From the NCBI RefSeq assembly GCF_013409595.1, contig NZ_JACCBD010000001.1, positions 1,240,001 to 1,304,000 of the forward strand: a stretch of 64,000 nucleotides of DNA. The letters are read 5' to 3'. The translations under genes were made by a program, and so were the position numbers. Shown one piece after another: positions 7,634-64,000 of this stretch. Origin of the DNA: Leucobacter aridicollis. GTDB taxonomy: Bacteria > Actinomycetota > Actinomycetes > Actinomycetales > Microbacteriaceae. Within the stretch, counting starts at the first letter, position 1. Each line of letters opens with the position of its first letter. The notes beneath the pieces are model-generated. The model saw nothing but the letters and a program-made list of their open reading frames with translations. It had not been told where the DNA came from and searched no databases.

Positions 7634-9391
7634 ATGGCAATCGCAAATTTCGCCCAGCAGACTGTTCCCGATGGCGGAACGTACGTGCCGCCCGTCGCGG
7701 ACTACGCCTTCCTGCTCGGTGAGGCATTCGGCACCGACGTCGTGGCGCGGGCCACGGATGGCGCGCTGAGCGCGGCCGACGCAGGCGACGCGCTGGAGGC
7801 CGCGGGCGAGTTCGCCGCCGAGGTGTTCGCGCCGCTCGACCGCGTGGGCGACCAGCAGGGCGCCCAGCTCGTTGACGGCAACGTGCGCATGCCCGACGGC
7901 TTCACGGCGGCCTACAAGTCGTTCGCGGCGGCCGGCTGGGTCTCGGCGTCGGTCGCGGAGGACGCCGGGGGAGACGGGCTGCCAGGATCCGTCACCGCCG
8001 CGCTCTCGGAGTTCTGGAACGCCTCGAACGCCGCGTTCGCGCTCTGCCCGGCGCTGAGCCACGGTGCGATCCGTGCCATCCAGGCGAACGCGTCTGAGGA
8101 GCTCCGCGCCGCGTACCTCCCCAAGCTCGTGAGCGGCGAGTGGACGGGCACGATGAACCTCACCGAGCCACAGGCCGGCAGCGACCTCGGCGCGGTGCGC
8201 ACGATGGCCCGCGACAACGGCGACGGCAGCTGGGCCGTGAGCGGCCAGAAGATCTTCATCACCTGGGGAGACCACGACGTTGCCGACAACATCGTGCACC
8301 TCGTGCTCGCCCGCACCGAAGGCGCCCCCGAGGGACACCGCGGCCTCTCGCTCTTCGTCGTGCCGAAGTTCACACTCGACGCATCCGGTGCGCCCGGCGA
8401 GCGCAATTCGGTCGTCACCGTCGGGCTGGAGCACAAGCTTGGCATTCACGCGAGCCCGACCTGCGTGCTGCAGTTCGAAGACGCGACGGGCTACCTCGTC
8501 GGCGAACTCAATCAGGGCCTCATGGGCATGTTCGTCATGATGAACGAGGCGCGGGTCGGCATCGGCGTCCAGGGGCTCGGCGTGGCCGACCGCGCCTACC
8601 AGCGCGCGCTCTCGTACGCACACACGCGGGTGCAGGGTGCGGTGCTCGGGCTGCCCGACGGCACTCCGATCGCTGGACATCCCGACGTCCGCCGGCTGCT
8701 GCTGTCGATGTCGAGCCGGATCTCCGCGATGCGCGCGTTCTCGGTGCTCGTCGGTGACGTGCACGACCGCGCCGAGGCTGACGGCACGGGCGCGCTGGCC
8801 GAGCTGTTCGTGCCGATCCTGAAGTCGTGGCTCACCGAGCAGGCCGTGCACATCTCCTCCGACGCCGTGCAGGTGCACGGCGGCATGGGCTTCATCGAGG
8901 AGACTGGCGCGGCGCAGCACTTCCGCGACGCGCGCATCATGCCGATCTACGAGGGCACCACTGCGATCCAGTCGAACGACCTCGTCGGACGCAAGGTGCT
9001 CCGCGATAGCGGCCAGACGCTTGGGCAGGTGTTCGCGATGATCCGCGAGCAGACCGCAGCCCTCACCGCGACGGGCGACGCGCTCGCCGCCCGAGTGGCC
9101 GAGCGCACCGAGCGCGCCGTCGGAGCGGCAGAGCGCGCCACGCAGGCGCTCCTCGGCTTCGCGTCAACCCCGCGCGATGCGTACGCGGTGTCGGTGCCGT
9201 TCCAGGAGCTCCTGGCGACGTTGGTGGGTGGCTGGATGCACGCGACCATCGCGACCGCGGTGCTCGGGCACGGGGAGCGGACCGACGACGACGCGCGACG
9301 TCTCGCCGAGGCTGACTTCTACAGCGCGCATCACCTCGCTCAGGTCCACGCGCTTGCGGAGACCGTCGCCGCCGGCGAGATCGGCGAGTAA
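7634..9391 (+). CDS. Acyl-CoA dehydrogenase, large FadE5-like form
   Basis: FAD enzyme of 585 residues that introduces the alpha-beta double bond in acyl-CoA. ATG 7634 has a GGAG site upstream. The length and C-terminal extension fit the large acyl-CoA dehydrogenase subfamily (FadE5 and the DmdC-like 3-methylthiopropanoyl-CoA dehydrogenases) rather than the ordinary 380-residue enzymes. Family signatures are MNLTEPQAGSDLGAVRT (FAD contact), ISGKIFITWGDHD-like segment, and QVHGGMGFIEETGAAQHFRDARI with the following IYEGTTAIQ near the C-terminus. No electron-transfer flavoprotein or thiolase genes are next to it, so it stands alone under the divergent TetR regulator. Chain length of the substrate cannot be read from sequence. 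Confidence 0.93.
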   Translation: MAIANFAQQTVPDGGTYVPPVADYAFLLGEAFGTDVVARATDGALSAADAGDALEAAGEFAAEVFAPLDRVGDQQGAQLVDGNVRMPDGFTAAYKSFAAAGWVSASVAEDAGGDGLPGSVTAALSEFWNASNAAFALCPALSHGAIRAIQANASEELRAAYLPKLVSGEWTGTMNLTEPQAGSDLGAVRTMARDNGDGSWAVSGQKIFITWGDHDVADNIVHLVLARTEGAPEGHRGLSLFVVPKFTLDASGAPGERNSVVTVGLEHKLGIHASPTCVLQFEDATGYLVGELNQGLMGMFVMMNEARVGIGVQGLGVADRAYQRALSYAHTRVQGAVLGLPDGTPIAGHPDVRRLLLSMSSRISAMRAFSVLVGDVHDRAEADGTGALAELFVPILKSWLTEQAVHISSDAVQVHGGMGFIEETGAAQHFRDARIMPIYEGTTAIQSNDLVGRKVLRDSGQTLGQVFAMIREQTAALTATGDALAARVAERTERAVGAAERATQALLGFASTPRDAYAVSVPFQELLATLVGGWMHATIATAVLGHGERTDDDARRLAEADFYSAHHLAQVHALAETVAAGEIGE

Positions 9392-9403
9392 CCGGAGGTC
9401 TCG

Positions 9404-9431
9404 GGCGCCCGCCTCTGCGGTGGCGGGCGCC
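9404..9431. terminator. Hairpin terminator between acyl-CoA dehydrogenase and LysR genes
   Basis: GGCGCCCGCC (9404-9413) pairs perfectly with GGCGGGCGCC (9422-9431) across an 8-base loop, 12 bases after the stop of the dehydrogenase and before the convergent LysR stop. Confidence 0.65.
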
Positions 9432-9445
9432 TCTGCGTGCCGGCC

Positions 9446-10381
9446 CTATCCCTGGCCGACGTGGCGGGAGTCGAGCGCGCTGATCGAGCGCCGTACCGCC
9501 TCCGCGAGCTGCCGCACCGCGGCGCTCGGTCCCGCAGGGCCTGCCGGCGCGGCGAGCAGCAGCTCTCGTGTGAACCTGTCGTCCGCGATCGGCCGCAGCA
9601 CGACGCCCTCCGGCACGCTGGAACGCATGAGCGACGGCACCAGGGCAACGCCCATGTGCGCCGCGATGAGACCGAGTACCACCGCATAGTCGTCGGTGCG
9701 CACGGGCACCGTCAGCTTCACGCGAGTCTCCTCGAAGAGCTCGCGAACGAGATCGTCGAGGGTGTCGCCCGGCGTTGACCCCATGACCCAGTTCTCGCCG
9801 CCGAGTTGCAGCAGTGCCTGCGTATCGAACTCCTCGATGTGCGCGAGTTCGTGATTCGCCGGGAGCGCGAGCAGCATCGGGTCGGTGAACACGTGCGTCG
9901 TGTGCACCTCTGAGCGCAGCGGGAGCGCGTAGCTGCCCGCCGCATAGACGAGGGCGGCGTCAAGGGTGTGCTGGTTGACGCCGCCGACGAGCGGCATGAC
10001 CTCGGCGAGGGTGGCATCGAGCTCGATGCCGAGCTCCGAGAGTCGCGTGGCGATGCCGGGCAGGATTCGCGCCGCGGCTGTCGGAAAGATGCCGAACCGC
10101 AGCCTGACGTGCCCGAGCTGGGCGAGGTCGCGGACGTCGGTGAGGGTGCGGTCGGCGAGCCCGAGGATCTCCTCGCCGCGCTCGAGCATGAGCAACCCGG
10201 CGTTGGTGAGGCGCGATCCTCTGCTGCTTCGCGACGTGAGCTCCGTGCCAACGAGCCTGTCGAGATTCTTCAGGTGGTAGTCGACGGTGGGCTGGCTCCA
10301 CCCGAGCCTGGACGCGGCGCGGGCCACCGAGCCCTCTGCGGCGACGGCGCTGAGCGCCTGGAGTTGGCGAAGATCGATCAC
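9446..10381 (-). CDS. LysR-family transcriptional regulator
   Basis: LysR-type regulator of 311 residues, the usual size. The winged helix-turn-helix is at about 1-62 (LRQLQALSAVAAEGSVARAASRLGWSQPTVDYHLKNLDRLVG), followed by a linker helix and a two-lobed substrate-binding domain. GTG 10381 is preferred because the helix-turn-helix begins directly after it and GGGAG lies upstream; an in-frame ATG further upstream would add 25 residues that run into the promoter. The gene is divergent from an amino acid decarboxylase with a large dyad between them, so it most likely controls that gene. Confidence 0.88.
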   Translation of the reverse strand: MIDLRQLQALSAVAAEGSVARAASRLGWSQPTVDYHLKNLDRLVGTELTSRSSRGSRLTNAGLLMLERGEEILGLADRTLTDVRDLAQLGHVRLRFGIFPTAAARILPGIATRLSELGIELDATLAEVMPLVGGVNQHTLDAALVYAAGSYALPLRSEVHTTHVFTDPMLLALPANHELAHIEEFDTQALLQLGGENWVMGSTPGDTLDDLVRELFEETRVKLTVPVRTDDYAVVLGLIAAHMGVALVPSLMRSSVPEGVVLRPIADDRFTRELLLAAPAGPAGPSAAVRQLAEAVRRSISALDSRHVGQG

Positions 10382-51479: not shown

Positions 51480-51554
51480 TGGGATATGGTGTAATTGGCA
51501 ACACTACGGTTTCTGGTACCGTCATTCTAGGTTCGAGTCCTGGTATCCCAGCCA
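51480..51554 (+). tRNA. tRNA-Gln(CTG)
   Basis: The acceptor stem TGGGATA (51480-51486) pairs with TATCCCA (51544-51550), followed by discriminator G and an encoded CCA. The anticodon arm is ACGGT-TTCTGGT-ACCGT with anticodon CTG, which reads CAG (glutamine). The T arm carries GGTTCGAGTCC. A U at position 1 and pairing with A72 are usual for tRNA-Gln. Confidence 0.95.
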
Positions 51555-51613: not shown

Positions 51614-53209
51614 CTACGCGTGAGGTCGGTCACTCTCGCCTGAAAGCGTGATGCGAAGCGACGGCTGCCAGATCTCAGACGATCGGTGCGTCACGAGGAC
51701 GACCGTGCCGCGTGTCGCAGCGATCGACTCTACGACAGTGCGCTCAGCCTGAGCATCCAACGCCGACGTGGCTTCGTCGAGCACCAATACCGGTGCATTC
51801 TTGAGTAGCGCCCGAGCAATCGCAACGCGCTGGCGTTCACCTCCTGAGAGATTGGCTCCGCGGTGACCGGCTTCCTGGTGCACGCCCAACGGGGAGCGGG
51901 CGATCACCTCGCCGAGTGCCGCCCTGCGCGCAGCATCGATGACTGCATCGTCGCTTGCGGCAGGGTCGCCGAGGCGGATGTTCTCCGCAAGGGTGCCGGA
52001 GAACACATCCGGATGCTGCGGTACATACGCAACATGCTCCATGAGCTGTGCGTGGTGCATGTCCCTGAGATCTGCGCCGCCGAGCAGCACCCGACCCTCG
52101 TCAGGATCGTCAAACCGCAACAGCAAACTAAGCAGGGTGCTTTTCCCGCTCCCAGTGGGGCCCTCCACAATGACGGTCGATCCCTCGGGGAGTACCGCAG
52201 ACACATCGCTGAGGACGGGCGAGTGCGAAAGCCGTTCGAACTCGATGACGTGGCCGCGAATGGCACCGGGACGCGATGGCTCAGGTAGATCTGGGGCATT
52301 GACGATCGTACCGAGCCGGGTGACGGCGTGACGTAGGTCGTTCACCGAGAGAGCAGCAAGCGCGAACGCTTCGAGCGGGGCAGACGCGCGCAGCGCGAGA
52401 ATCGCCGTCGCGAGCAGCACGGAGGAGTCATACCCACCCGTAACTGCGCCCCACAGGATGATGCCGAGGACGGGAAGTACGCTCACCGCGGTAGCGAGAA
52501 AAGCTGCGGTCGCGGTAGCACGATTAGTGTTCCGTAGCGCTTGCGCTTGCGCTTCCCAGCGGTCTGTGAGGCGGTCAACTGCGTGGCGATTGCCGAGGGC
52601 GGATCGAAGCAACTCGAGGTGGTCAAGGAATTCGAAGGCAGACTCATGTGCCTCGTGTTCGCTTCGCCCCCGCGCGGCGTCAGCCCGGGCCAGCGAGCGC
52701 TGGGCGGCAACTTGTGCCGCGAATGCAACGCCAATTAGTACGGCAACGACCGCGGCGAGCCACCCATCACCCACGATCCAGACGCCGATGACCAGCAATA
52801 CGGGAAGCAGCGGCGCAACCAAGAGGGTCTGGAGCTGGTGCGCAGGAACGCTCATGAGTGACGGGATGGTTCGGCCTGCGACATCACCTGCCAGAGCCCG
52901 GTTCGATTCAGTGAACCACGAGAGCTTTGCGCGTGAGAAGGTCTCGCCGACTGCGCGATAGAGATCCGCGGCGAGGCCTGCGCCGGTTATATACCCGCTT
53001 CGCGAGACCACGACCGTGACGGCTATCGCGACAACCGCAGTGACCAAGACCCAGGCCGGGCCCTGCTGCCTCGCAATCGACGCTCCCAGGGTGGTGTAGG
53101 CAGCGGCCTCGGTGAAAGCGACCAGGACCCAGCCGAGCGAGATCGAGGCAATCTTTCGCTTCACCACGGTTGGGAAGCCCGGGCTGAGCTGTTGAGGTGC
53201 AGAGGTCAT
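51614..53209 (-). CDS. Exporter-fold ABC half-transporter, IrtB/YbtQ-like
   Basis: Protein of 531 residues: a six-helix exporter-type membrane domain (about 25-310) fused to an ABC ATPase (Walker A GPTGSGKSTLL at about 355, signature LSGGERQRVAIA, Walker B VLVLDEATSALD). Alone it could be any CydCD-like or multidrug half-transporter. Its partner is translationally coupled upstream (four-base overlap) and both close a siderophore uptake operon, so the best match is the heterodimeric IrtAB/YbtPQ type that imports ferric siderophores although built like an exporter. Export of the spent siderophore is the alternative. It ends 31 bases after the tRNA terminator on the opposite strand. Confidence 0.85.
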   Translation of the reverse strand: MTSAPQQLSPGFPTVVKRKIASISLGWVLVAFTEAAAYTTLGASIARQQGPAWVLVTAVVAIAVTVVVSRSGYITGAGLAADLYRAVGETFSRAKLSWFTESNRALAGDVAGRTIPSLMSVPAHQLQTLLVAPLLPVLLVIGVWIVGDGWLAAVVAVLIGVAFAAQVAAQRSLARADAARGRSEHEAHESAFEFLDHLELLRSALGNRHAVDRLTDRWEAQAQALRNTNRATATAAFLATAVSVLPVLGIILWGAVTGGYDSSVLLATAILALRASAPLEAFALAALSVNDLRHAVTRLGTIVNAPDLPEPSRPGAIRGHVIEFERLSHSPVLSDVSAVLPEGSTVIVEGPTGSGKSTLLSLLLRFDDPDEGRVLLGGADLRDMHHAQLMEHVAYVPQHPDVFSGTLAENIRLGDPAASDDAVIDAARRAALGEVIARSPLGVHQEAGHRGANLSGGERQRVAIARALLKNAPVLVLDEATSALDAQAERTVVESIAATRGTVVLVTHRSSEIWQPSLRITLSGESDRPHA

Positions 53210-54813
53210 GCGAGTTCTCCTGAGGCCGTGACGTGATCCGCGCCGAGATCGAGCCGTTCGTCGGCAAGTTGTGCCATGCGCGTGTCGTGCGTGACGAACA
53301 CGACGGCGCGATCCTCATCGTGCGCAAAGCGCACCAGCTCGGCGACGAGTGCGTGGCCTGTGGCGTCATCAAGCGCGCTCGTTGGCTCGTCGAGCAGGAT
53401 CAGGGATGCATCACTGAGGAACGCCCGTGCAATGTTTACCCGCTGTCGCTCGCCGCCGGATAGCGGGCGGGCGGGTGTCTCGGGGCTGGCAGCCAATTGG
53501 GCCTGCTTCAGTGCTCGCACAACCTGGGTGCGCTGCGCATCACCGGTGCCGAGACGCACATTCTCCGCAATCGTCCCAGGCAGTAGGTCGCTACTTTGAG
53601 GGATGAGTAGTGGTACGGCACGCTCGGCCGCTCCAAGAGGGTTCGTTCCGAAGCGGATCTCACCCCGATCCGGTGAGTCGAGGCCGGCAATCGCTCGGAG
53701 CAGGGTTGACTTTCCGCAGCCACTTGGCCCAGTGATTGCGGTCACTTTTCCGCGAGCAAAGGAGTGGGAGAGTCCTTCGACAAGTGTCCGATCTCCAGTG
53801 CGTAGCGTGACGTCAACGATCTCAGCGACTGCACCCGAGTCGACCGCTGCCGCAAAGTTCTCTGGGACAGTGGCCTGGTGGAACAGGCCGGTCACCCGGT
53901 GAGCCGCTTCTCGGCCCGTGCGAATGTAGTCGATGCCGTGTCCCAGCCGCATCGCGGGCGTCACTATCGCAAGTCCGAACAGGAGCATTGCTGCGAGGGC
54001 CTCGGGATCCGCTGAATAGCCCAGCGCGTACGCGATTGCGTATGTCGCGACGGCCTGCATAAACGCGGTCGCTAGGGCCGAAAGCGTTGCAACCTTGCGG
54101 ACGTAGCGCACGAATCCATCGGTGAAGTTCCGTGTGGCGGAGGCGTAGTCTGCGGCAGCGCCGCTTGTTGCGCCGAACACTCGACAGGTCTGCATGCCAT
54201 GGGCGTAATCGTCGACCGCGGTGATAATCTCGCCCATGACGCGGGCGTTGCGGTCACCGTGCCGGCGTGAGAGTTTCGGGACGACGAGCAGGAAGTGCGC
54301 TGCTGCGAGGAACCCCGGGACGAGCGCAAGGAGCGACACCGGCCCCGCGAAGCTCAAAAGCGCCCCAATTGTCGCGACGGGCACGACGACAAGCATTGTG
54401 AGCTCGGAAGGGAGATGAGCGACCATATGGTGCAGCGCCGAAATATCGTCTCCGATCAGGCGCCGGAGATCATTTCCGCTGTACCGTGAGAGGGTTCGGC
54501 TCGGTAGTGCGGCAATGTGGGTTGCGGTCTGGCGGCGGAGGCTGGCCGAGAACCGCCCCTCGCCTTCGTGTGCCAGCCACGACGAAAGCGCAGCGCCTAG
54601 CGCACTGAGCACCCACAACCCGCATATTGCCGCGGCGAGCGGCACGGATGGAGAAACCACGGTGCGAACGACGCACCACAGTGCCCCCACCATAGCGAGA
54701 CCGCTCGCGGCAGCGGTGATCACCGCGATGGTGAGCTGCCACGCGCCGCGTGTCAGCGCAGAAGCGATCGACGGTTCGCGCCTGACTCCTTCGGAATTGC
54801 CAGCTGCAGTCAT
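53206..54813 (-). CDS. Exporter-fold ABC half-transporter, IrtA/YbtP-like without SIP domain
   Basis: Protein of 535 residues, partner of the preceding half-transporter. Six helices (about 18-300) are followed by an ATPase with Walker A GPSGCGKSTLL (about 368), signature LSGGERQRVNIA and Walker B LILLDEPTSALD. Mycobacterial IrtA carries a siderophore-interacting (SIP) flavin domain at its N-terminus; here that domain is missing and a separate SIP gene lies at the head of the operon. ATG 54813 overlaps the stop of the FepC-type ATPase gene by four bases. Base composition is less G+C rich than in the core genes of the window. Confidence 0.85.
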   Translation of the reverse strand: MTAAGNSEGVRREPSIASALTRGAWQLTIAVITAAASGLAMVGALWCVVRTVVSPSVPLAAAICGLWVLSALGAALSSWLAHEGEGRFSASLRRQTATHIAALPSRTLSRYSGNDLRRLIGDDISALHHMVAHLPSELTMLVVVPVATIGALLSFAGPVSLLALVPGFLAAAHFLLVVPKLSRRHGDRNARVMGEIITAVDDYAHGMQTCRVFGATSGAAADYASATRNFTDGFVRYVRKVATLSALATAFMQAVATYAIAYALGYSADPEALAAMLLFGLAIVTPAMRLGHGIDYIRTGREAAHRVTGLFHQATVPENFAAAVDSGAVAEIVDVTLRTGDRTLVEGLSHSFARGKVTAITGPSGCGKSTLLRAIAGLDSPDRGEIRFGTNPLGAAERAVPLLIPQSSDLLPGTIAENVRLGTGDAQRTQVVRALKQAQLAASPETPARPLSGGERQRVNIARAFLSDASLILLDEPTSALDDATGHALVAELVRFAHDEDRAVVFVTHDTRMAQLADERLDLGADHVTASGELA

Positions 54814-55685
54814 GATATCACCGCCTCTCGTTCGGCGGTCACACCTTCCAGATGAGTCCGCCCGAGCGGGATGACCTGCGGGGTGCCGGCGACCGGGTCT
54901 GGGACCACCCTGCATGGGAGGTCGAACACGTGCTCGACGAGTTCTTCGGTGAGGACAGCCGCCGGCGCCCCTTCCGCGACGATTGCCCCGTCTCGCATCG
55001 CGATGAGGTGGGTCGCGTAGCGTGCGGCCTGGTTGAGATCATGGAGCACCGCGACGAGCGTCCGCCCTGAGCGGTGGAGATCGGTGAACAGTTCAAGGAG
55101 TTCGATCTGATGCGTGAGGTCGAGGTAGGTAGTGGGCTCGTCAAGGAGCAGCACGTCAGTCTCTTGGGCGAGTGCCATGGCAACCCACACCCGTTGGCGC
55201 TGCCCGCCAGATAGCTCATCAAGAAGCCGACCGGAGAGCTCGTGCACGCCGGTCGCGTCCATCGCCTCCGAGACCGCGGCTTCGTCGGACGGGCTCCACT
55301 GCCGAATGAGCTTTTGGTAGGGGAATCTCCCGCGGGCGACTAGGTCGGCGACGCGAATGCCGTCGGGCGCGATCGAGGTCTGGGGGAGAAGCCCGAGGCG
55401 CCGTGCAACTTCCTTCGCGGGATAACCGTGAATGTCGCGTCCATCGAGTACCACCTGCCCAGCTTCGGGCTTGAGTAGGCGCGATAGTCCACGTAGGAGC
55501 GTTGACTTTCCGCACGCGTTCGGGCCGATGATCACCGTAAACGAGCCATCAGGAATCGCGACGGTGAGGTCAGAGGCGATTGTGCGCTTGTCGTAGGCGA
55601 GCGCCAGGTGCTCGGCTCGCAACCGGTGCTCGGTGTGTGTCTCCGGGGCGCCGCTTGCGCGGCTGGGAAGGGACATGTGTGTCAA
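54810..55685 (-). CDS. Ferric-siderophore ABC transporter ATP-binding protein, FepC type
   Basis: ATPase of 291 residues that drives a FecCD-type siderophore importer. Walker A is GPNACGKSTLL (Cys in place of the more usual Gly), the signature is ELSGGQRQRVWVAMALAQ and Walker B is VLLLDEPTTYLD, all typical of the FepC/FhuC group. The frame is open to a TTG at 55685 that overlaps the permease stop by four bases (chosen because all genes of this operon couple in that way); ATG 55676 is the alternative. It overlaps the following half-transporter gene by four bases. Confidence 0.92.
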   Translation of the reverse strand: MTHMSLPSRASGAPETHTEHRLRAEHLALAYDKRTIASDLTVAIPDGSFTVIIGPNACGKSTLLRGLSRLLKPEAGQVVLDGRDIHGYPAKEVARRLGLLPQTSIAPDGIRVADLVARGRFPYQKLIRQWSPSDEAAVSEAMDATGVHELSGRLLDELSGGQRQRVWVAMALAQETDVLLLDEPTTYLDLTHQIELLELFTDLHRSGRTLVAVLHDLNQAARYATHLIAMRDGAIVAEGAPAAVLTEELVEHVFDLPCRVVPDPVAGTPQVIPLGRTHLEGVTAEREAVIS

Positions 55686-56764
55686 AGTGATTTTCTCGTT
55701 TCTCGGATGAGCAGCCAGATCAGGTAGAGACCGCCAAGGCAGACCGTGATCAACCCGACGGGAATTGGCCGGTAGAGCTCTGCGATCAGTAGTGAGAGTG
55801 CGTGGGCGCAGGTGAGCAGAGCTGCCCCCATGCAGGCAGCGCCGCCGACGGTGACTCCTGGAGTGCCGGCAAGACGTCTGGCCAGTTGCGGTGCAGCGAG
55901 AGCGACGAACCCGATCGGGCCGGCGGCCGCGGTCACCAGCGCTGTCGCAGCGACGCCGGTGATGAGCAGCGCTGGGCGCGAGCGGTTGGCATTCAAGCCC
56001 TGAGAGAGCGCCGCATCGTCGCCGAGCTCAAGCTGCCTGAGTGCGGGGGCGAGTGTCGCGATGAGGCCGACGATGATGAGGCCCCCGATCGTGGCGGGGA
56101 ACAGCCCCTCCCACCCGACCCTGCTCAGGGAACCGGCTGCCCAGAACCCGACGCTCATCGAATCGGTGATGTCTGCCCGGGTGACGAGGTAAATGTTGAC
56201 GGCCCCCAGCATTGCGGAGACCGCGATACCCACGATGATGAGCCTGAAACCCTGAACGCCTCGCCGATAAGCCAGTAGGTACACGATCGCAGCTGTCGCG
56301 AGCCCACCGATCAACGCGGCAGACGCGACGCCCCAGTAGTTTTTTGTGCCCAGCGTCAATACGGCGATTGCGACCGCGGTGTAGGCCCCGGTGTCAAACC
56401 CGATAACGTCTGGCGACCCGAGCGGGTTGCGCGTGAGCGACTGAAAGACGGCGCCGCCGATGCCGAGGAGTAAACCGAAGAGGAGCGCAGCGAGGGCGAC
56501 GGGAAGACGCCACTCGATGACAATCATGCGCTGGAACTCGTCGCCCTGCCCGGCCAGGGCGGCTACCACTTCCGCAGGGCTGAAAGGGTAATCGCCGAAG
56601 CCGAGCGCGAGCACCGCAGCAACGAGAGCGATGGTAACGAGCGCGGCGTTGACCGCGACACTGCGAACACTCCAGCGAAGCGAGACTTGCGCGCCAAGGC
56701 GAGTCTGACGCGAGCTGTAGCCGAAATCGATGGGGGTTCTTTCCGGGGTGACACTCGCGCTCAT
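55682..56764 (-). CDS. FecCD-family siderophore permease, second subunit
   Basis: Permease of 360 residues with about ten helices of the BtuC/FecD family. The segment RLPVALAALLFGLLLGIGGAVFQSLTRNPLGSPDVIGFDTGA (about 95-135) is the family hallmark, and GPIGFVALAAPQLARRLAG near the C-terminus is the ATPase-coupling region. The N-terminal 45 residues are polar and cytoplasmic. ATG 56764 overlaps the stop of the first permease gene by four bases; the open frame continues further upstream only as a shadow of that gene. Confidence 0.93.
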   Translation of the reverse strand: MSASVTPERTPIDFGYSSRQTRLGAQVSLRWSVRSVAVNAALVTIALVAAVLALGFGDYPFSPAEVVAALAGQGDEFQRMIVIEWRLPVALAALLFGLLLGIGGAVFQSLTRNPLGSPDVIGFDTGAYTAVAIAVLTLGTKNYWGVASAALIGGLATAAIVYLLAYRRGVQGFRLIIVGIAVSAMLGAVNIYLVTRADITDSMSVGFWAAGSLSRVGWEGLFPATIGGLIIVGLIATLAPALRQLELGDDAALSQGLNANRSRPALLITGVAATALVTAAAGPIGFVALAAPQLARRLAGTPGVTVGGAACMGAALLTCAHALSLLIAELYRPIPVGLITVCLGGLYLIWLLIRETRKSL

Positions 56765-57813
56765 AACGTGGATGCCTTTCTGCGCCGCACGAGCGCGATG
56801 AGAACGGGGGCGCCGAGAACCGCGGTCATCACGCCGGCTTCGATCTCGCCGGGGCGCGCAACGACTCGTCCGAGAACGTCCGCGCTGAGCACGAGCACCG
56901 GAGAGGCGAGGGCTGTGTACGCGACTATCCAGCGCTGATCGGGTCCCGTAAACCAGCGAACGAGGTGCGGCACAGCGAGCCCGACGAACGCGATGCCTCC
57001 AGTGAGCGCGGTCGCGGCCCCTGCGAGAAGTGTGACGCTGATGAGTCCGATCGTGCGTGTCCGGGCGATGTTTGCCCCGAGCGATGCGGCCTGATCGTCT
57101 CCGAGCGCGACCGCGTTGAGCGATCCTGAGATGACGACAGCGAGCACCAAACCCAGAACAATCAGCGGCAACACGGTGAGTGTGTCTGATACAGAGACCC
57201 GAGCGAGCGAGCCGAGGCTCCAATTCCGGAATGAGCGGAAGGTCTCCTCGTTGATGAGTTGGAGGAACGTCGCGAAGGCTGTGAGTACTGCCGCGAGCGC
57301 GACACCGGCGATAACGAGGGTGACGGGGGAGGCGCTGCCGCTGCCCGAGGCGCCGATGAGGTACACGAGAACGGTCGCGAGGACTGCTCCGGCGAACGAA
57401 AACCAGACGTACCCGGCGATCCCCGTCACTCCGAACACGGCGACACCGACGGTGATAGCAAAGCCGGCCCCGGCATTCACACCGAGAATCCCAGGGTCAG
57501 CGAGCGGGTTTCGAGTGATGGCTTGGATGAGCGCGCCAGCGACCCCGAACGCCGCCCCAGCTACGATCCCAACGAGCGTGCGGGGTGCGCGCAGCGTCCA
57601 GACGATTGAGGAGGCCTCGCTCCCGTCTGAGTCGAACACGGTTCGCCACACCTCCGACATTGGAACGGGGTTCGCGCCGTAGGTGATGCTCAACACGAGC
57701 ACGAGGCAGAGTGCTGCTATGAGGGCTGCGATTCCGAGAAGTCGCCGCTGCGTTGCGTGGCCCTTGGCACGTAATGGGCGCGCTGCGTTCTCAGTGTGAA
57801 CAGGGGAGGTCAT
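56761..57813 (-). CDS. FecCD-family siderophore permease, first subunit
   Basis: Permease of 350 residues of the same family (FepD type). The hallmark segment is LRAPRTLVGIVAGAAFGVAGALIQAITRNPLADPGILGVNAGAG, and the coupling region is GGIAFVGLAVPHLVRWFTGPDQRW. It forms a heterodimer with the second subunit. It lies 71 bases after the binding-protein gene, and a hairpin sits in that gap. The start region has AGGGGAGG-like purines upstream only weakly; ATG 57813 fits the family N-terminus. Confidence 0.93.
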   Translation of the reverse strand: MTSPVHTENAARPLRAKGHATQRRLLGIAALIAALCLVLVLSITYGANPVPMSEVWRTVFDSDGSEASSIVWTLRAPRTLVGIVAGAAFGVAGALIQAITRNPLADPGILGVNAGAGFAITVGVAVFGVTGIAGYVWFSFAGAVLATVLVYLIGASGSGSASPVTLVIAGVALAAVLTAFATFLQLINEETFRSFRNWSLGSLARVSVSDTLTVLPLIVLGLVLAVVISGSLNAVALGDDQAASLGANIARTRTIGLISVTLLAGAATALTGGIAFVGLAVPHLVRWFTGPDQRWIVAYTALASPVLVLSADVLGRVVARPGEIEAGVMTAVLGAPVLIALVRRRKASTL

Positions 57814-57884: not shown

Positions 57885-58949
57885 CTAGAACTTCTCGGCG
57901 AGCAGCGGCACGAGTTGTTCGGCCGCCCACGCGTTTCCGATCGGCCCACCGCTGGTGATGGCCCAGAGGAGGTCACCGCCGTCGTCGGTTTTCGGGGGGA
58001 GCTGGACGAACCTGCCAGACTTCACCGCTCCGAGGCTGGTGAACAGGTCGGTGCCGGTCACGCGCTCAGCCATTTCCTCGAGGGTCGTGGCCTCGCTCTG
58101 CCCGAGCACCAGCACGTCTGCATCGATCTTCGAGATCAACTCGTCGCTCACGGTCGTATCCTTCGCGAACGCGGCTGCGCCCGGGTTCGGGGCGAATCCA
58201 AGGTCGGTGAGGAAGAGCTCGGGCGCTGCTCCGTTCTGCGAGAAGTACTGGAGCCCGGTCGCCGGGCCGTAGTAGATCGCCCACGTTGCCGTCTTGCCGT
58301 CGAACTCTGGGTGCGCCTCTCGGATCCCCGAGAAGAGTTCTTCGTGCTCATCAATCACAGCTTCTGCTCGGTCGCTCAGGTCGATGGCCTCGCCGAGCAG
58401 CCGGATCGACTCTTGCCAGGGAACGATGCGCTGGTCGGACGCCGGGCTGGTGAGAACGGGCGCGATTTTCGCTAGCCGATCGTAGATGTCCTCCACGCCG
58501 CCAAATCCCGGCACCCAGCCCACCGTGACGATGAGATCTGGCTTGGCCGCTGCAACGGCTTCCATCGGCACGTCCTCGCCCCGCACATATTCGTAGGTAT
58601 TGAGATCAGCCGCGCCGTGAGCGTCGAGGTAGCCGCCCTCGGAGACCATGTTTGAGTTGAGCACGGGAGTCACCCCGAGCGACAGTAGAAGCTCGGTATC
58701 TACGCCGTTGGGTACGATCGCCGCGATCCGTGTTGGACGTTCCTTGAGTACTGTCTCGCCGTACGGGCTATCGAGGGTGAGCGGATAGGACGTAGTTCCC
58801 TCGGCGGCTGGCACGAGCTCTGAAGCCTCGGCTGCGGCGCTGTCGTTCGAGCTGGATGCTGCTGGCGCCGAGCACCCGACGAGCAGGAGCAGCGCGGCGA
58901 GCGCTGACCCGACAAGGGCGGTTGAGTGAACATTTCTTCGCAGGGGCAT
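57885..58949 (-). CDS. Ferric-siderophore substrate-binding lipoprotein
   Basis: Lipoprotein of 354 residues of the FepB/FhuD-type class III binding proteins. ATG 58949 gives a good signal peptide (MPLRRN, hydrophobic core) and lipobox LLVGC with Cys26. The mature part has two lobes joined by one long helix: PTRIAAIVPNGVDTELLLSLGVTPV in the first lobe and DADVLVLGQSEATTLEEM in the second. It captures the iron complex outside the cell for the FecCD permeases. The ligand (catecholate, hydroxamate or heme-free mixed type) cannot be told from sequence. An open frame extends upstream but lacks conservation. Confidence 0.93.
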   Translation of the reverse strand: MPLRRNVHSTALVGSALAALLLLVGCSAPAASSSNDSAAAEASELVPAAEGTTSYPLTLDSPYGETVLKERPTRIAAIVPNGVDTELLLSLGVTPVLNSNMVSEGGYLDAHGAADLNTYEYVRGEDVPMEAVAAAKPDLIVTVGWVPGFGGVEDIYDRLAKIAPVLTSPASDQRIVPWQESIRLLGEAIDLSDRAEAVIDEHEELFSGIREAHPEFDGKTATWAIYYGPATGLQYFSQNGAAPELFLTDLGFAPNPGAAAFAKDTTVSDELISKIDADVLVLGQSEATTLEEMAERVTGTDLFTSLGAVKSGRFVQLPPKTDDGGDLLWAITSGGPIGNAWAAEQLVPLLAEKF

Positions 58950-59025
58950 GATTGCCTTTCGTGAGTGGACGAGTTCTGAGATTTCGAGACTGTGTGGTTG
59001 GCGACTGAAGAGGGCCTGAGCTGGC

Positions 59026-59874
59026 TCAGGGTGCGTCTGACGCGTCAGGCACGGGAACGCCTGACTGCCCGCGTTTCCAGTAGCCGGTGAAACTGATCGC
59101 GGCCCGCGGCAGCTCCCATGTCTGCACAAGGAAGCGCCGGATCTCGCGCACTTCTGCCTGCTCCCCAGCAACCCAGACGGCGAGGTTCTCGCGCGGCAGA
59201 GTTGTCGCCTCGAGCGCTACAAGCAGGGGGCTCCTGGTAGGGCTTGCAACTGCGTCCGCATTGATCCAGCGAACACGTACGCCCGCGGGGGCTTGAAGTT
59301 CGTATCGGTACTCCTTGCCGGGCACGCTGAGCAGCACCTCGCCTGTTGCTCGCTCGGGCAGCTGCTCGAGTAACCGCGCGACAGCCGGGATCGCGGTGTC
59401 GTCGCCGAGGATGAGGTAGTTGTCGGCGCCGCTCGGAAGATCGAGGGTTTTTCCGGGCCCCACGACATACATGACATCTCCGACTGATGCCGTCGACGCC
59501 CACGTCGAGGCAACGCCTGTGCCATGAAGCACGATGTCGATGTCGAGCTCGCGGGTCGTGGGGTCAAAGCGTCGGACCGTATAGGCGCGGGCGATCGGGC
59601 GGCGGCCAGGCGCAAACGTGACTCGCCCGTGTTCGATTTCAGGCAATACAGGGGTCAGATCTCCCGGGTAGGGGAACAGCAGCCTGACGTCATCGTCGAA
59701 CCCCGGGCTCGAGAACGCCGGCGTGACGTTACCGGCCTGGTCTGTGTGGGCGTCAAGGGCCGCGCCGGTGAGCGTGATGCGCAGCATCGTTGAAGTGACC
59801 TCGGTGAGCCTGCCGACCCTGAGTGGTCGGATGCCAACGGGCATGAGCTGTACCGTTCGAGCGGATACGGGCAA
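59026..59874 (-). CDS. Siderophore-interacting protein (FAD-dependent ferric-siderophore reductase)
   Basis: Flavoprotein of 282 residues of the SIP family (ViuB/FscN type), which reduces the imported ferric siderophore in the cytoplasm to release Fe(II). The FAD-binding motif RAYTVR is at 96-101 and the NAD(P)H-binding segment GDDTAIPA at 157-164; the C-terminal YWKRG is typical. The start is uncertain. TTG 59874 has a GAGGGAG ribosome binding site eight bases upstream and is preferred; TTG 59934 would add 20 residues and ATG 59844 would remove 10. It is the first gene of the operon. Confidence 0.9.
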   Translation of the reverse strand: MPVSARTVQLMPVGIRPLRVGRLTEVTSTMLRITLTGAALDAHTDQAGNVTPAFSSPGFDDDVRLLFPYPGDLTPVLPEIEHGRVTFAPGRRPIARAYTVRRFDPTTRELDIDIVLHGTGVASTWASTASVGDVMYVVGPGKTLDLPSGADNYLILGDDTAIPAVARLLEQLPERATGEVLLSVPGKEYRYELQAPAGVRVRWINADAVASPTRSPLLVALEATTLPRENLAVWVAGEQAEVREIRRFLVQTWELPRAAISFTGYWKRGQSGVPVPDASDAP

Positions 59875-59946
59875 GTCGTGTTCTCCCTCGGAGAGTTCCC
59901 GTCTGATGCGGGACCGGTGTACCTCACCGGCCAATGAGAAAGGCTA

Positions 59947-59974
59947 TTGTTGGAATCATCAGATGATTTATCCT
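59947..59974. promoter_or_regulatory. Divergent siderophore-locus promoter with palindromic operator
   Basis: For the rightward regulator gene, TTGTTG (59947-59952) and TATCCT (59969-59974) are 16 bases apart. The perfect palindrome AATCATCAGATGATT (59954-59968, 7+1+7) lies within that spacer. It is not an iron box of the DtxR/IdeR consensus. Binding there could control both the regulator and the uptake operon. Confidence 0.6.
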
Positions 59975-60006
59975 GATGCGCAAAGATCACATACTGAGGG
60001 GGTTCG

Positions 60007-61611
60007 GTGCCGCAAGATTCGCACTGTGTGCTGCTCGAATCGAACGAATTCGCCGCTGCGGTCGCTGAGAAGGTTTGCAATTCGCGCGAGCCATCCCTTA
60101 TTTGGGCCTATGCGGGACAGGGGCGCGTCTCCATCGGCAATCATGTCTATCCGCTGCGCCAGGGCGACGCGATCTGGGTGCCGGCGGGCCTGGAGTACGA
60201 TATTCGAAGTTCCCCGAACAGCGTGCTTATCCCAATCTTCCCGGCAGCCAGGCGGGCCCACTTTGCGCTCTCGACGCCAACGAGAACGCACTTCGCTGCT
60301 GAATGGAACGACTGGCTTGTCTATCAGTTCGCACGGAGCATCGGGTACCTCCGTGGCGCGGCTGCCGCCCAGGGGCTTGCGGGTGTCGTCGTCGGTTCTC
60401 CCGGGTCAACCCCAGGAGGCACACCGATGCCCGCGGCACCTGTGCCGCTGCCTCCAAGGCCGAACTCGCCCGAGGCCTCACGGGTCGCATTGCGTCTCAT
60501 GCAGGATCCTGCCGATTCTGCTTCGATCGATGAACTCGCCTCGGGTGTGAGCGTCTCCGTACGAACGCTGCAGGCGCAGTTTTCGAGCGAAACCGGCTTC
60601 GCGATATCGGAGTGGCGAGCCCAAGTTCGTATCGCGGCAGCAGCGACGTATATCGATCTTGGCCACGACATTGGGTGGACTGCGCAGCAGGTCGGGTATG
60701 CCACTCCCGCAGGGTTTACCAAAGCATTTTTCAGGCAAACGGGGGTGACCCCGAGCGCTTTCGCACAGCGCAGAGGGCAGCGGGTCCGCCCTAGCGAGCC
60801 AGTGTCTGATTTGGCCCCTCCTGGTGAGGCCGGCGAGACTGCTGCATCTCGTCGAGGCGTTCCTCCCGTCGTGCCTGCGAGCAAGACTTGGGACAGGGTG
60901 AGCGATTTCCATGTGCTCGTGTGGGTGTATCGAGGTTCAGCACGGGTGGAAATCGCAGGCGAACTGTTCAACCTGCGCCAAGGCGAAGCCGCCTGGCTAC
61001 CGGCTGGCCTCTCGAACAGTGTCAGCTTGCCCGCAGGGTCGATCCTGCTGCCCCTTGGATCACAGGAAGTGAATTACGGGGCGGACGCTCCGGATGTTCT
61101 GGTGCAGCGGTTCTCTGACGATGCTGGGCTGTTTCTCATGCACACAATGGTGGCCAACTACTCGCGCCTTCGCCCCACAATCCACGACCCGCATGCGATC
61201 ACGCGGGCGTTTGCTCAGCAGAGCGCGGTTATGGGCGTCTCCGCGGGGGTGCGTACTTCATCCAATGCCTCGCGCGTTCAGGCGCTCGCGGCCGAGCTGC
61301 ATAGAACCCCCGCAGATCGAAGAAACCTGAGTGAGTGGGCCGGCCATTTCGAGATCGAACCCGCTCAGCTGGCGTCGGCGGTCTTGTCGATTACCGGAAT
61401 GGAGTTCAGCCGGTGGCAGAGCCAGATCCGTATGACGATGGCCCGCCGCTACCTGGCAGAGGGGATGAGCGTGGCTCGGGTAGCGAGGACTCTCGGTTAC
61501 GCCCACGCCTCCGGCTTTGGACAGGTGTTTACGCGGAAGCACGGACTCTCCCCGCGCGACTATCAACGCGAAGGGTGGCAGCAGACTGCCGAGCCATTGA
61601 TTGTCCCCTGA
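60007..61611 (+). CDS. Tandem double AraC-family regulator of the siderophore locus
   Basis: Protein of 534 residues made of two complete AraC-type modules. Module one has a cupin-like sensor (about 30-100; VSIGNHVYPLRQGDAIWVPAGL) and an AraC helix-turn-helix (about 156-256; GFTKAFFRQTGVTPSAF at its end). Module two repeats this: cupin (about 303-352; VEIAGELFNLRQGEAAWLPAGL) and helix-turn-helix (about 424-524; GFGQVFTRKHGLSPRDYQ). The two are linked by a Pro/Ser/Arg-rich segment (about 257-300). Ordinary family members have one module and about 260-330 residues. The GTG start has GAGGGG upstream. It is divergent from the siderophore operon and is its likely regulator, as YbtA-type proteins are. 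Confidence 0.9.
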   Translation: MPQDSHCVLLESNEFAAAVAEKVCNSREPSLIWAYAGQGRVSIGNHVYPLRQGDAIWVPAGLEYDIRSSPNSVLIPIFPAARRAHFALSTPTRTHFAAEWNDWLVYQFARSIGYLRGAAAAQGLAGVVVGSPGSTPGGTPMPAAPVPLPPRPNSPEASRVALRLMQDPADSASIDELASGVSVSVRTLQAQFSSETGFAISEWRAQVRIAAAATYIDLGHDIGWTAQQVGYATPAGFTKAFFRQTGVTPSAFAQRRGQRVRPSEPVSDLAPPGEAGETAASRRGVPPVVPASKTWDRVSDFHVLVWVYRGSARVEIAGELFNLRQGEAAWLPAGLSNSVSLPAGSILLPLGSQEVNYGADAPDVLVQRFSDDAGLFLMHTMVANYSRLRPTIHDPHAITRAFAQQSAVMGVSAGVRTSSNASRVQALAAELHRTPADRRNLSEWAGHFEIEPAQLASAVLSITGMEFSRWQSQIRMTMARRYLAEGMSVARVARTLGYAHASGFGQVFTRKHGLSPRDYQREGWQQTAEPLIVP

Positions 61612-61806: not shown

Positions 61807-62298
61807 ATGCGGCGAAGAGCGCTCGAAATGGCGTTGGTGATGGCAGCGCTTGCAATTGTGATTACCCTTGGCCTCGCGACGGAGGACACGCTTTCGTCAC
61901 TTGCAAAGCAGACGCACGAACGGATCGGCCCCGTGCACCTCATGCCAGAAAGGGGAGAGCCGGGCGTTGAGCCCTTCACAGATGTCATGCTGGACGCGGC
62001 TGTTGAGCCGTTCACCAGCGACGACGCGGAACGCGAAATACGCGTGCTCGTCGAGGCGGCACTGGCGGAGCCCAACGGGCCCGCAACGACGAGCGAGCGG
62101 ATGAGCGAGCCCTCCATCGAGTTCGACGCAGCTCACCCGCCGATCGACGGGCAGAGCTGCGGCTGCGCCACCGCCCCCCTACAGCGTCGGGATGTTCGCG
62201 AGCAGCTCCTTCGTGTAGGCGTGCGTCGGGTTGTTGAGCACCTCGTCGACCGGGCCGTCGTCCACGATTTCGCCACGGTTCAGCACGGCGACGCGTGA
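61807..62298 (+). other. Doubtful open frame in a gene-poor stretch, possible small membrane-anchored protein
   Basis: The gap 61612-62178 has no convincing gene. One open frame could code for 163 residues: MRRR, a hydrophobic helix (about 8-25) and an acidic, Glu-rich soluble part. Its first half has mixed codon use and its second half has the usual G/C third positions. Against it: no ribosome binding site or TANNNT box, and its last 40 codons run antisense through the end of the ABC ATPase gene, where they look like a shadow. It may be a decayed or frameshifted gene. I do not recognise it. Confidence 0.25.
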
Positions 62299-64000
62299 CG
62301 CGATGTGGCGCGCCAGCGCGATGTTGTGGGTGACGAAGAGTACCGTGAGATCACGCTCTTCCTGCAGGGTGTGGAGCAGCGAGATGATGTTCGCCTGCAC
62401 GGAGACGTCGAGCGCCGACGTGATCTCGTCGCACACGAGCACCGACGGCATGTTGACGAGGGCCCGCGCGATCGCGGCGCGTTGCCGTTCGCCGCCCGAC
62501 AGGTCGCCTGGCCGCCGGTCGTAGAACTGCCGCCCGAGCTGCACGGCGTCGAGGGCGTCACGCACGCGTTCGCGGCGCTCTTCCGCGCTGTACTCGCTCG
62601 CCATCTCGAGCGGCACGAGGAGTGACTGCCCGAGCGTGCGGCGCGGGTTCAGTGACGAGAACGGTGACTGGAAGATGTACTGGATCTGCCGCCGCTGCTC
62701 CTGGGTCCGCCCTCGCGTTGACTTCGCAAGCTCCTGGCCGTGGTAGCTCACCGAGCCCTCGTAGTCGCTGAGCAGGCCGGCGATGGAGCGGGCGAGTGTC
62801 GTCTTGCCCGATCCTGATTGGCCGAGAAGGAGCGTGCTCTCGCCCGGCGCGAAATCGAGATCGATGCCGCGGAGCACCTGATTCTTGCCGTAGGCGACGC
62901 GGAGGTCTCGGATCGAGATCCGTGGATCCGCTGCACCCGGCGCCCCCGTCGTGGCGTCCACACCGGGCTCCGGTGGCGCGTCGACAGGCACTGCCGCCGC
63001 CGCGCCCGCATGGGCGCCGCCGGCACCGTGAGCGCCGGGACCGTGCGCACCGGCGCCCTCGCCTGCTCCGGCGCCTTCGCCAGCGCTTCCGCCCGCATCG
63101 CCGTCACCCGAGCGGGAGACGACCTTATCGGGCGCGGTGTGCTTGAGGATGTCGAGCTCGCCGGTGAGGAACTCCGCGGTGCGCGCGTCCATCTTCGAGA
63201 GCTTCCCGATCTGGTTCTTCCCGGCGAGGTCGGGCACGGCGGCGAGCAGCCTGCGCGTGTAGTCGTGCTGCGGCCGCACGAGCACCTGGCTGGTGTCGCC
63301 GACCTCCACGATCTCGCCGCGAAGCATCACCGCGACGCGGTCCGCGATCTCCGATACGACGGCGAGGTCGTGCGTGATGTACAGCCCGGCGACCCGGTTC
63401 TTCACGGTCATGTCGCGGATCGTGTCGAGCACCTGCTCTTGCGTGGTAACGTCGAGGCCTGTCGTCGGCTCGTCGAGCACGATGACGTCTGGGTACATTG
63501 CGAACGCCATCGCGATCCCGATCCGCTGCTGTTGCCCGCCGGACAGCTGGTGCGGCCAGCGGCGCTGGTACTCGTCGCTGTCGGGGAGCCCGACCTCCCG
63601 CAGCACCGAGCGCACCCGGTCCGCGCGGTCGGCCTCGGACGCGCCGAAGCCGTGAATGTCGAGCACCTCGCGAATCTGGGCACCAACCCGCATGCTCGGG
63701 TTCAGCGAGAGCGCCGGGTCCTGCGGCACGTAGCTGACGCGCGCACCGCGGAGCTGGCGCCTCGCGGACTCGCCCAGCGTGAGCATCTCGGCGAGGTCGG
63801 GGCTGTCGGACGGATACAGCGTGACCGTTCCGCCGGTGTGCGCGAGGCCCTCGCGGATGTGGCCGAGCACTGCGAGGCCGACTGTCGTCTTACCCGATCC
63901 CGACTCGCCGACGAGCGCGAGGATCTCCGCCGCCCGCAGGTCGAGGTTCACGTCGGACACCACGGCGAGGCCGGTGGCGGTCGCCGCGATCGTGAGGTCG
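62179..64000 (-). CDS. Oligopeptide/dipeptide ABC transporter ATP-binding protein, fused DppD-DppF, 5'-truncated
   Basis: The frame is open to the last base of the window, so the N-terminus is missing; a GTG at 63963 is not the start because the conserved strand DLTIA lies upstream of it. At least 607 residues are visible with two complete ATPase domains. The first has Walker A GESGSGKTTV, signature QLSGGQQQRIGIA and Walker B VIVLDEPTTGLD. The second has Walker A GQSGSGKTTLA, signature DLSGGERQRAAIA and Walker B VLVCDEITSALD. Between them is a low-complexity linker of about 60 residues full of Gly, Ala, Glu and His (GAGAGEGAGAHGPGAHGAGG). It energises peptide or nickel-type uptake; the permease genes are outside the window. 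Confidence 0.92.
   Translation of the reverse strand, partial: DLTIAATATGLAVVSDVNLDLRAAEILALVGESGSGKTTVGLAVLGHIREGLAHTGGTVTLYPSDSPDLAEMLTLGESARRQLRGARVSYVPQDPALSLNPSMRVGAQIREVLDIHGFGASEADRADRVRSVLREVGLPDSDEYQRRWPHQLSGGQQQRIGIAMAFAMYPDVIVLDEPTTGLDVTTQEQVLDTIRDMTVKNRVAGLYITHDLAVVSEIADRVAVMLRGEIVEVGDTSQVLVRPQHDYTRRLLAAVPDLAGKNQIGKLSKMDARTAEFLTGELDILKHTAPDKVVSRSGDGDAGGSAGEGAGAGEGAGAHGPGAHGAGGAHAGAAAAVPVDAPPEPGVDATTGAPGAADPRISIRDLRVAYGKNQVLRGIDLDFAPGESTLLLGQSGSGKTTLARSIAGLLSDYEGSVSYHGQELAKSTRGRTQEQRRQIQYIFQSPFSSLNPRRTLGQSLLVPLEMASEYSAEERRERVRDALDAVQLGRQFYDRRPGDLSGGERQRAAIARALVNMPSVLVCDEITSALDVSVQANIISLLHTLQEERDLTVLFVTHNIALARHIASRVAVLNRGEIVDDGPVDEVLNNPTHAYTKELLANIPTL

Follow-up and report, generated by a model that had tools for sequence, protein, structure and literature searches.

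The window analysed here, a stretch of 64,000 nucleotides from Leucobacter aridicollis, contains an open reading frame (60007..61611, +) for a double AraC-type regulator of 534 amino acids, a call that draws on the frame itself, Pfam, an alignment of half against half and a protein search. The frame has a GTG start with a purine-rich GAGGGGG just upstream, and runs for 534 codons without an internal stop. Its product consists of two successive units, each made of a cupin and an AraC DNA-binding domain. In the N unit the cupin occupies residues 28-78 (60088..60240, +; Pfam AraC_binding/Cupin_2, bounds set by eye on alignment A1) and the DNA-binding domain about residues 158-257 (60478..60777, +; HTH_18 at residues 177-255); the corresponding domains of the C unit lie at residues 300-351 (60904..61059, +; Pfam and A1) and about residues 425-525 (61279..61581, +; HTH_18). 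Between the units is a poorly conserved linker (residues 258-286; 60778..60864, +; mean entropy 2.85 bits), which, counted from residue 255 to residue 298, measures 27-76 amino acids in A1 and 34-49 in 36 of the 38 rows of that alignment (made without P0001 and P0025).

A preliminary description of this DNA had proposed two complete AraC modules in one chain and a separate domain search of each half, and both proposals hold. Against Pfam, the whole chain matches HTH_18 in two stretches (115 bits in total) and AraC_binding in two (38.9 bits). Searched separately, residues 1-256 and the remainder score 59.4 and 60.9 bits for HTH_18, both above the cut-off of 33.6, such that each half has such a domain rather than one half only; for AraC_binding the first half scores 22.5 bits and the second 19.3, with a cut-off of 21.1, which places the C cupin alone just below it. 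The N and C halves align with 27% identity across 233 residues (E 9e-24, for a single comparison), and the cupin motif described as shared between them (LRQGDAIWVPAGL / LRQGEAAWLPAGL) is present in the protein. From HTH_18 above the Pfam cut-off twice, and from a cupin-type ligand domain (common in AraC/XylS proteins, not universal), we infer that the regulator belongs to AraC/XylS, with DNA binding and transcription control as predicted functions. None of the best 25 of 31 NCBIfam models, AraC, RhrA and Btr among them, passes its cut-off, the top score being 80.5 bits versus 208 for AraC.

Genes for siderophore uptake adjoin the regulator divergently. The nearest encodes a siderophore-interacting protein (SIP; 59026..59934, −; Pfam SIP 118 bits, FAD_binding_9 98 bits), followed by an iron-siderophore binding protein of uncertain start (57885..59093, −; Peripla_BP_2 76.5 bits, and siderophore/iron binding proteins in the PDB), two FecCD-type permeases (56761..57813, −, PF01032 301 bits; 55682..56764, −, PF01032 248.5 bits) and an ABC ATPase that is of the FecE type by position (54810..55685, −; ABC_tran 100.5 bits). 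Beyond these come an ABC exporter-fold subunit that is IrtA-like without a SIP domain (53206..54816, −; PDB match IrtA 7wiu) and its partner subunit, IrtB-like by position (51614..53209, −; ABC_tran). IrtA 7wiu is second among the PDB matches of the former (residues 65-524), with ABCB and CydC proteins scoring close, and the best NCBIfam models for the latter are of type I secretion/CydC types and fall below cut-off. A tRNA-Gln gene (anticodon ctg; 51480-51554) is located just past the 3' end of the IrtAB-like operon, and a dipeptide/oligopeptide-type ABC ATPase with two ATPase domains (62179-63963) reads towards the regulator gene.

A protein search, limited in scoring to the 7996 candidates with most words in common, listed 39 proteins, 38 of them covering 88-100% of the query and one (P0025, 398 amino acids) covering 74%; repeating it with the family alignment returned the same 39. 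One listed protein, at 99% identity, is the window's own or a near copy, which leaves 38 further relatives, 37 of them over 88-100% of the length. The listed proteins come from Leucobacter, Streptomyces, Corynebacterium, Microbacterium, Kocuria, Aeromicrobium and others, and a Leucobacter komagatae protein is 86% identical to the regulator along its full length. In total, 80 double proteins were collected, none identical to another in either unit, and in A1 conservation is similar in the N and C units, with the variable linker between them. The search for other proteins of the double layout, suggested in the preliminary description, has thus been answered. Its worry that a sequencing error might have merged two adjacent genes across a real stop near codon 257-300 is excluded by the 38 of 39 listed proteins that match over 88-100% of the query. 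That the gene is an artefact or a recent accident, a merger of genes without function, has in our judgement a negligible probability: its one point of support is that the reading frame is broken inside the gene at two related loci (L092 and L133), and it is refuted by the protein search (including the full-length Leucobacter komagatae match), the set of 80 non-identical double proteins and the conservation of both units. The two broken frames (about 8256-9774 at L092 and about 8103-9504 at L133) are either broken genes or assembly errors, and the siderophore-uptake genes adjoining them still give matches.

Across the phylum the double AraC family is widespread, though scattered. Searched with the family alignment, 2 of 396 genomes from the whole phylum have a full-length double match (any match at E 1e-40 in 5), as do 7 of 398 genomes of the family (any match in 21) and 19 of 54 genomes of the genus (any match in 25), where two additional genomes, G818 (broken) and G828, hold the double gene. 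In a second family, 9 of 301 genomes match at E 1e-70; for one genome the match is confined to the C unit, though the frame holds both units. In the genus of G161, 4 of 246 genomes match. Double matches were tallied from match ranges, and all genome counts are lower bounds because few candidates were scored per genome (3-5, and up to 27 in the genus sample). A scan of genome contigs gave one distant match (28% identity, residues 434-522). In the plasmid collection searched, the family was not seen as a plasmid trait: 72 records have matches, and in just one does the match extend over 80% or more of the query (27% identity).

The history of the two units was approached through a quick maximum-likelihood tree of 123 units (46 N, 46 C and 31 single, the singles having been picked for similarity). 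Doubles at least 72% identical to a kept one had been removed, which reduced 80 to 46, and identical rows were dropped, as were L018x6 and two L059 pieces (broken genes, the same as L092 and L133) and the shortened P0025; the unit collection had also left out the L008 and L009 matches and two open reading frames without a full unit (L018_o9 and L004_o7). One branch sets off all 46 N units and another all 46 C units, each with an SH-aLRT of 99, and this grouping is most simply explained by a double layout that arose once and was then long retained. When the N and C units are held together against the 31 singles, the best tree gains 9.85 log units over the free quick tree, and the AU test does not reject it (p-AU 0.653). 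The origin by duplication of a whole AraC-type gene, as first proposed, is therefore upheld only in part: duplication of one gene is compatible with the tree that keeps N and C together, and fusion of two already distinct paralogues may also account for it.

Proximity to siderophore uptake is a regular feature of this family. We probed 48 double loci from 38 genomes, selected by the regulator alone and including the two broken genes, with seven window proteins (IrtB-like, IrtA-like, FecE, FecD, FecC, binding protein and SIP). A binding protein, FecC/FecD or SIP lies within 7 kb at 44 of the 48, compared with 1 of 20 control stretches (taken at round coordinates in 11 of the 38 genomes), where four of the 48 loci (L103, L109, L123 and L127) are shorter because they lie near a contig end, and the score thresholds, identical for loci and controls, were fixed after a first look at the neighbour matches. 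At 41 of the 48, a binding protein or SIP stands divergent within 700 bp upstream. The expectation that a set shared next to FecCD/IrtAB-like operons in many genomes would mark a distinct family is thus borne out, and we propose a double-AraC siderophore-locus family, putatively characterized by a single origin of the N units and of the C units and by uptake genes next door, both of which are found here. The best explanation of these sequence patterns is that the regulator belongs to an old actinobacterial family that accompanies siderophore uptake loci.

Several loci count against a role in siderophore sensing: the probed uptake genes are absent near the double gene at three of the 48 (L093, L103 and L119), and at L100 the IrtAB-like genes are the only probed genes nearby. 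Scanned open reading frames include sugar enzymes, among others, at L093, and a DUF418 protein and an ABC ATPase at L119. At L103 (1-6822) about 1 kb separates the double AraC gene from a large non-ribosomal peptide synthetase upstream of it, and hence this branch may also control siderophore making. Among the 31 singles, all five whose loci were inspected (L130-L132, L135 and L136) have genes for siderophore uptake within 7 kb, so this AraC branch may have had its ancestral home at siderophore loci.

The host genome (one contig, 3.57 Mb) carries another double AraC gene, 32% identical to the first and with HTH_18 in two stretches, which belongs to a separate clade and has its own promoter block. 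Its locus (L104:7961-14353; G000:C1 about 2044600-2051000) has the gene divergent to a binding protein-FecC-FecD-FecE-SIP run. A genome-wide scan for HTH_18 returned 22 stretches, and the only genes with two stretches are these two; both are near FecCD genes, which occur within 10 kb of 3 of the 18 other AraC genes.

Between the regulator and SIP lies a divergent intergenic region (59935..60006; longer if SIP starts downstream of its TTG). An alignment of 10 chosen loci of the query-like clade shows in this region a DtxR/IdeR-like palindrome and, downstream of it, a conserved block, TTATCC-N4-GnGC-N5-TCnCATAC (59968..59994, +, in the window), which is a candidate operator and/or promoter; TC and A-AC within it keep fixed spacing, and L100 departs from TTATCC. 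Other groups have blocks of their own: loci of the G161 group carry GTGCGCAGACTGCC or a variant after their box, in place of the TTATCC block, and most members of the paralogue clade have a GTTGAT...GTGTTAC block. The window's block has one exact site genome-wide, and the regulator therefore looks like a local one. A further 9 sites are found at 3 mismatches versus 6 for the reversed control, and since these numbers are comparable no regulon is claimed beyond the gene's own promoter. A description of the block as two direct AraC half-sites was dropped, its spacing and sequence being too unclear.

The candidate iron box seems to have been kept unevenly among these promoters. Scored with a DtxR consensus, and searched within about 330 bp upstream of the double gene, a DtxR/IdeR-like box of at least 13 of 19 positions occurs at 39 of the 48 double loci, as against 5 of 240 stretches drawn randomly from the same loci, which are not independent of one another. 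At the window's gene and two close relatives (L084-086) the best box is not better than chance (10, 10 and 9 of 19), and the window has no match allowing up to 3 mismatches, which counts against the iron-box part of the interpretation. These three genes keep the AAGGCTA half alone at the box position (in the window, the half-box AAGGCTATTG at 59940..59949, too degenerate to be called a box), and seem to have lost the box that most of their relatives keep. The box is accordingly usual, not defining, in the proposed family, and the window's gene does not carry it.

The two units are unequal in several details of their sequence. The C cupin is better conserved than the N cupin (mean major-residue frequency 0.71 versus 0.59 in A1). 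In the first helix-turn-helix, the C unit departs further from the consensus of the singles than the N unit does, and it is more variable (entropy 1.78 bits versus 1.53). Counted in aligned columns, His stands at a first cupin place in 27 of 31 singles and in 1 of 46 units of either kind, and at a second place in 30 of 31 singles, 13 of 46 N units and 9 of 46 C units (the commonest residues there being Tyr, in 16 N units, and Asn, in 28 C units). At a third place the residue is His in 19 of 31 singles, 4 of 46 N units and 41 of 46 C units, which shows that some His persists in the C cupin; a regular-expression count of PxG-xx-His is lower, with His in 18 of 31 singles and the motif missing in 10. 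In sequence, then, the two cupins differ from their single relatives and from each other, and these His changes, with the drift of the first helix-turn-helix, point to specialisation of the two halves.

One reading of this asymmetry, which we judge improbable, is that a single unit works and the other is structural, serving as a regulatory lid or dimer partner; the drifted first helix-turn-helix of the C unit and the loss from both cupins of some His of the singles would agree with it, but the second helix-turn-helix is about equally conserved in the two units (mean major-residue frequency 0.69 and 0.67 over 38 rows), and both units reach about 60 bits with HTH_18. Another, to which we give a low probability, assigns the two cupins to different siderophore forms or kinds (ferric and iron-free, for example), from which the chain would compute a ratio or an AND; with the SIP gene next door, both the imported and the reduced siderophore should be present in the cytoplasm, and the cupins have diverged from the singles and from each other, but divergence by itself is no proof of two ligands. 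It is similarly doubtful that the chain is an obligate heterodimer whose two non-equivalent pockets read two siderophore states, such as ferric and iron-free, at one promoter; were this so, uptake would be switched on only when import and iron release both work.

The interpretation that we favour, and consider probable on the sequence evidence, makes the protein a pair of AraC units in a single chain that would respond to a siderophore signal in the cytoplasm by activating the uptake operon divergent to it. Ferric siderophore would enter through the FecCD system, the IrtAB-like exporter-fold pair or both, and SIP would then reduce it; the siderophore or its complex would bind one or both cupins; and the linked DNA-binding domains would bind the conserved block as a built-in pair, activating the operon. 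In relatives, iron-loaded DtxR/IdeR would override activation at plentiful iron. That the protein activates, and does not repress, is an assumption drawn from the AraC family, in which many members must dimerise to contact paired DNA half-sites. From the divergence of the cupins we suspect that the units are non-equivalent, and thus that the chain may act as a built-in heterodimer and not as two equal halves. It is unlikely, in our view, that two double chains still dimerise, with the tandem layout adding DNA contacts (a four-site operator) instead of replacing dimerisation. The frequent dimerisation of AraC-type regulators speaks for such an arrangement, as do partly conserved middle regions in both units (A1) that could hold dimer contacts, but AraC half-sites measure about 17-20 bp, so that the block of only about 27 bp in the query-like clade has room for at most about two; this objection is weak, as less conserved sites could flank the block.

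The double AraC regulator is a real, conserved AraC-family variant tied to siderophore loci and, as far as our searches reach, undescribed. Binding of its two DNA sites with no need to dimerise, and sensing of two ligands, both put forward in the preliminary description, are hypotheses. Six papers considered as reports of tandem AraC regulators (PMC9582017, PMC11854999, PMC11052242, PMC7051946, PMC8639528 and PMC10710014) were rejected: in the parts of them available, they concern pairs of distinct regulators, lists of gene symbols or the Ada entry COG2169, and no tandem regulator. Within the accessible text of the open literature (subscription papers being mostly outside it), we found no account of tandem AraC regulators at siderophore loci, in keeping with the preliminary description, which had known of none. 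A natural single-chain AraC pair, retained in several actinobacterial lineages and linked to iron scavenging, would offer a clean system for asking how a ligand held by one unit affects the way the other contacts DNA, and whether a siderophore can be sensed in two states by two pockets; proteins that at present carry just the name of helix-turn-helix or AraC family regulator would also gain a label.

Among described systems, Corynebacterium variabile has AraC regulators (siuR1-5 and fiuR1-3) in siderophore and iron uptake clusters with DtxR sites, according to the available portion of the report (PMC3219685). They share with the double loci an AraC regulator, a siderophore cluster and DtxR sites, and so support the favoured reading; the comparison is by description, the available text does not mention a double layout (PMC3219685), and some of them could be double. 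AraC regulators also flank the RUSTI iron island, as the available text has it (PMC5526665; PMC6579920); this island of Actinobacteria from cheese rinds comprises genes for siderophore import together with a siderophore reductase (PMC5526665). RUSTI is set apart from the double loci by its description as a horizontally transferred island (PMC5526665), with no mention of a double AraC regulator in the portions available (PMC5526665; PMC6579920). Closer at hand, the single cupin-AraC regulators at L130-L132, L135 and L136 resemble the double loci in standing beside Fec loci, and are near single relatives in the tree; they differ from the double proteins in having one unit and in mostly keeping the cupin His at the compared places. 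PchR, YbtA, AlcR, RhrA and Btr have an AraC DNA-binding domain, a gene beside siderophore genes and presumed activation by siderophore, as does the window's regulator, which the NCBIfam models of RhrA and Btr match weakly; a siderophore dependence like that of PchR/YbtA-like activators would be expected of it, judging purely from its neighbours. Each of these five has one AraC unit, and Btr carries a binding-protein domain instead; the window's regulator, by contrast, has cupin and AraC domain twice in one chain.
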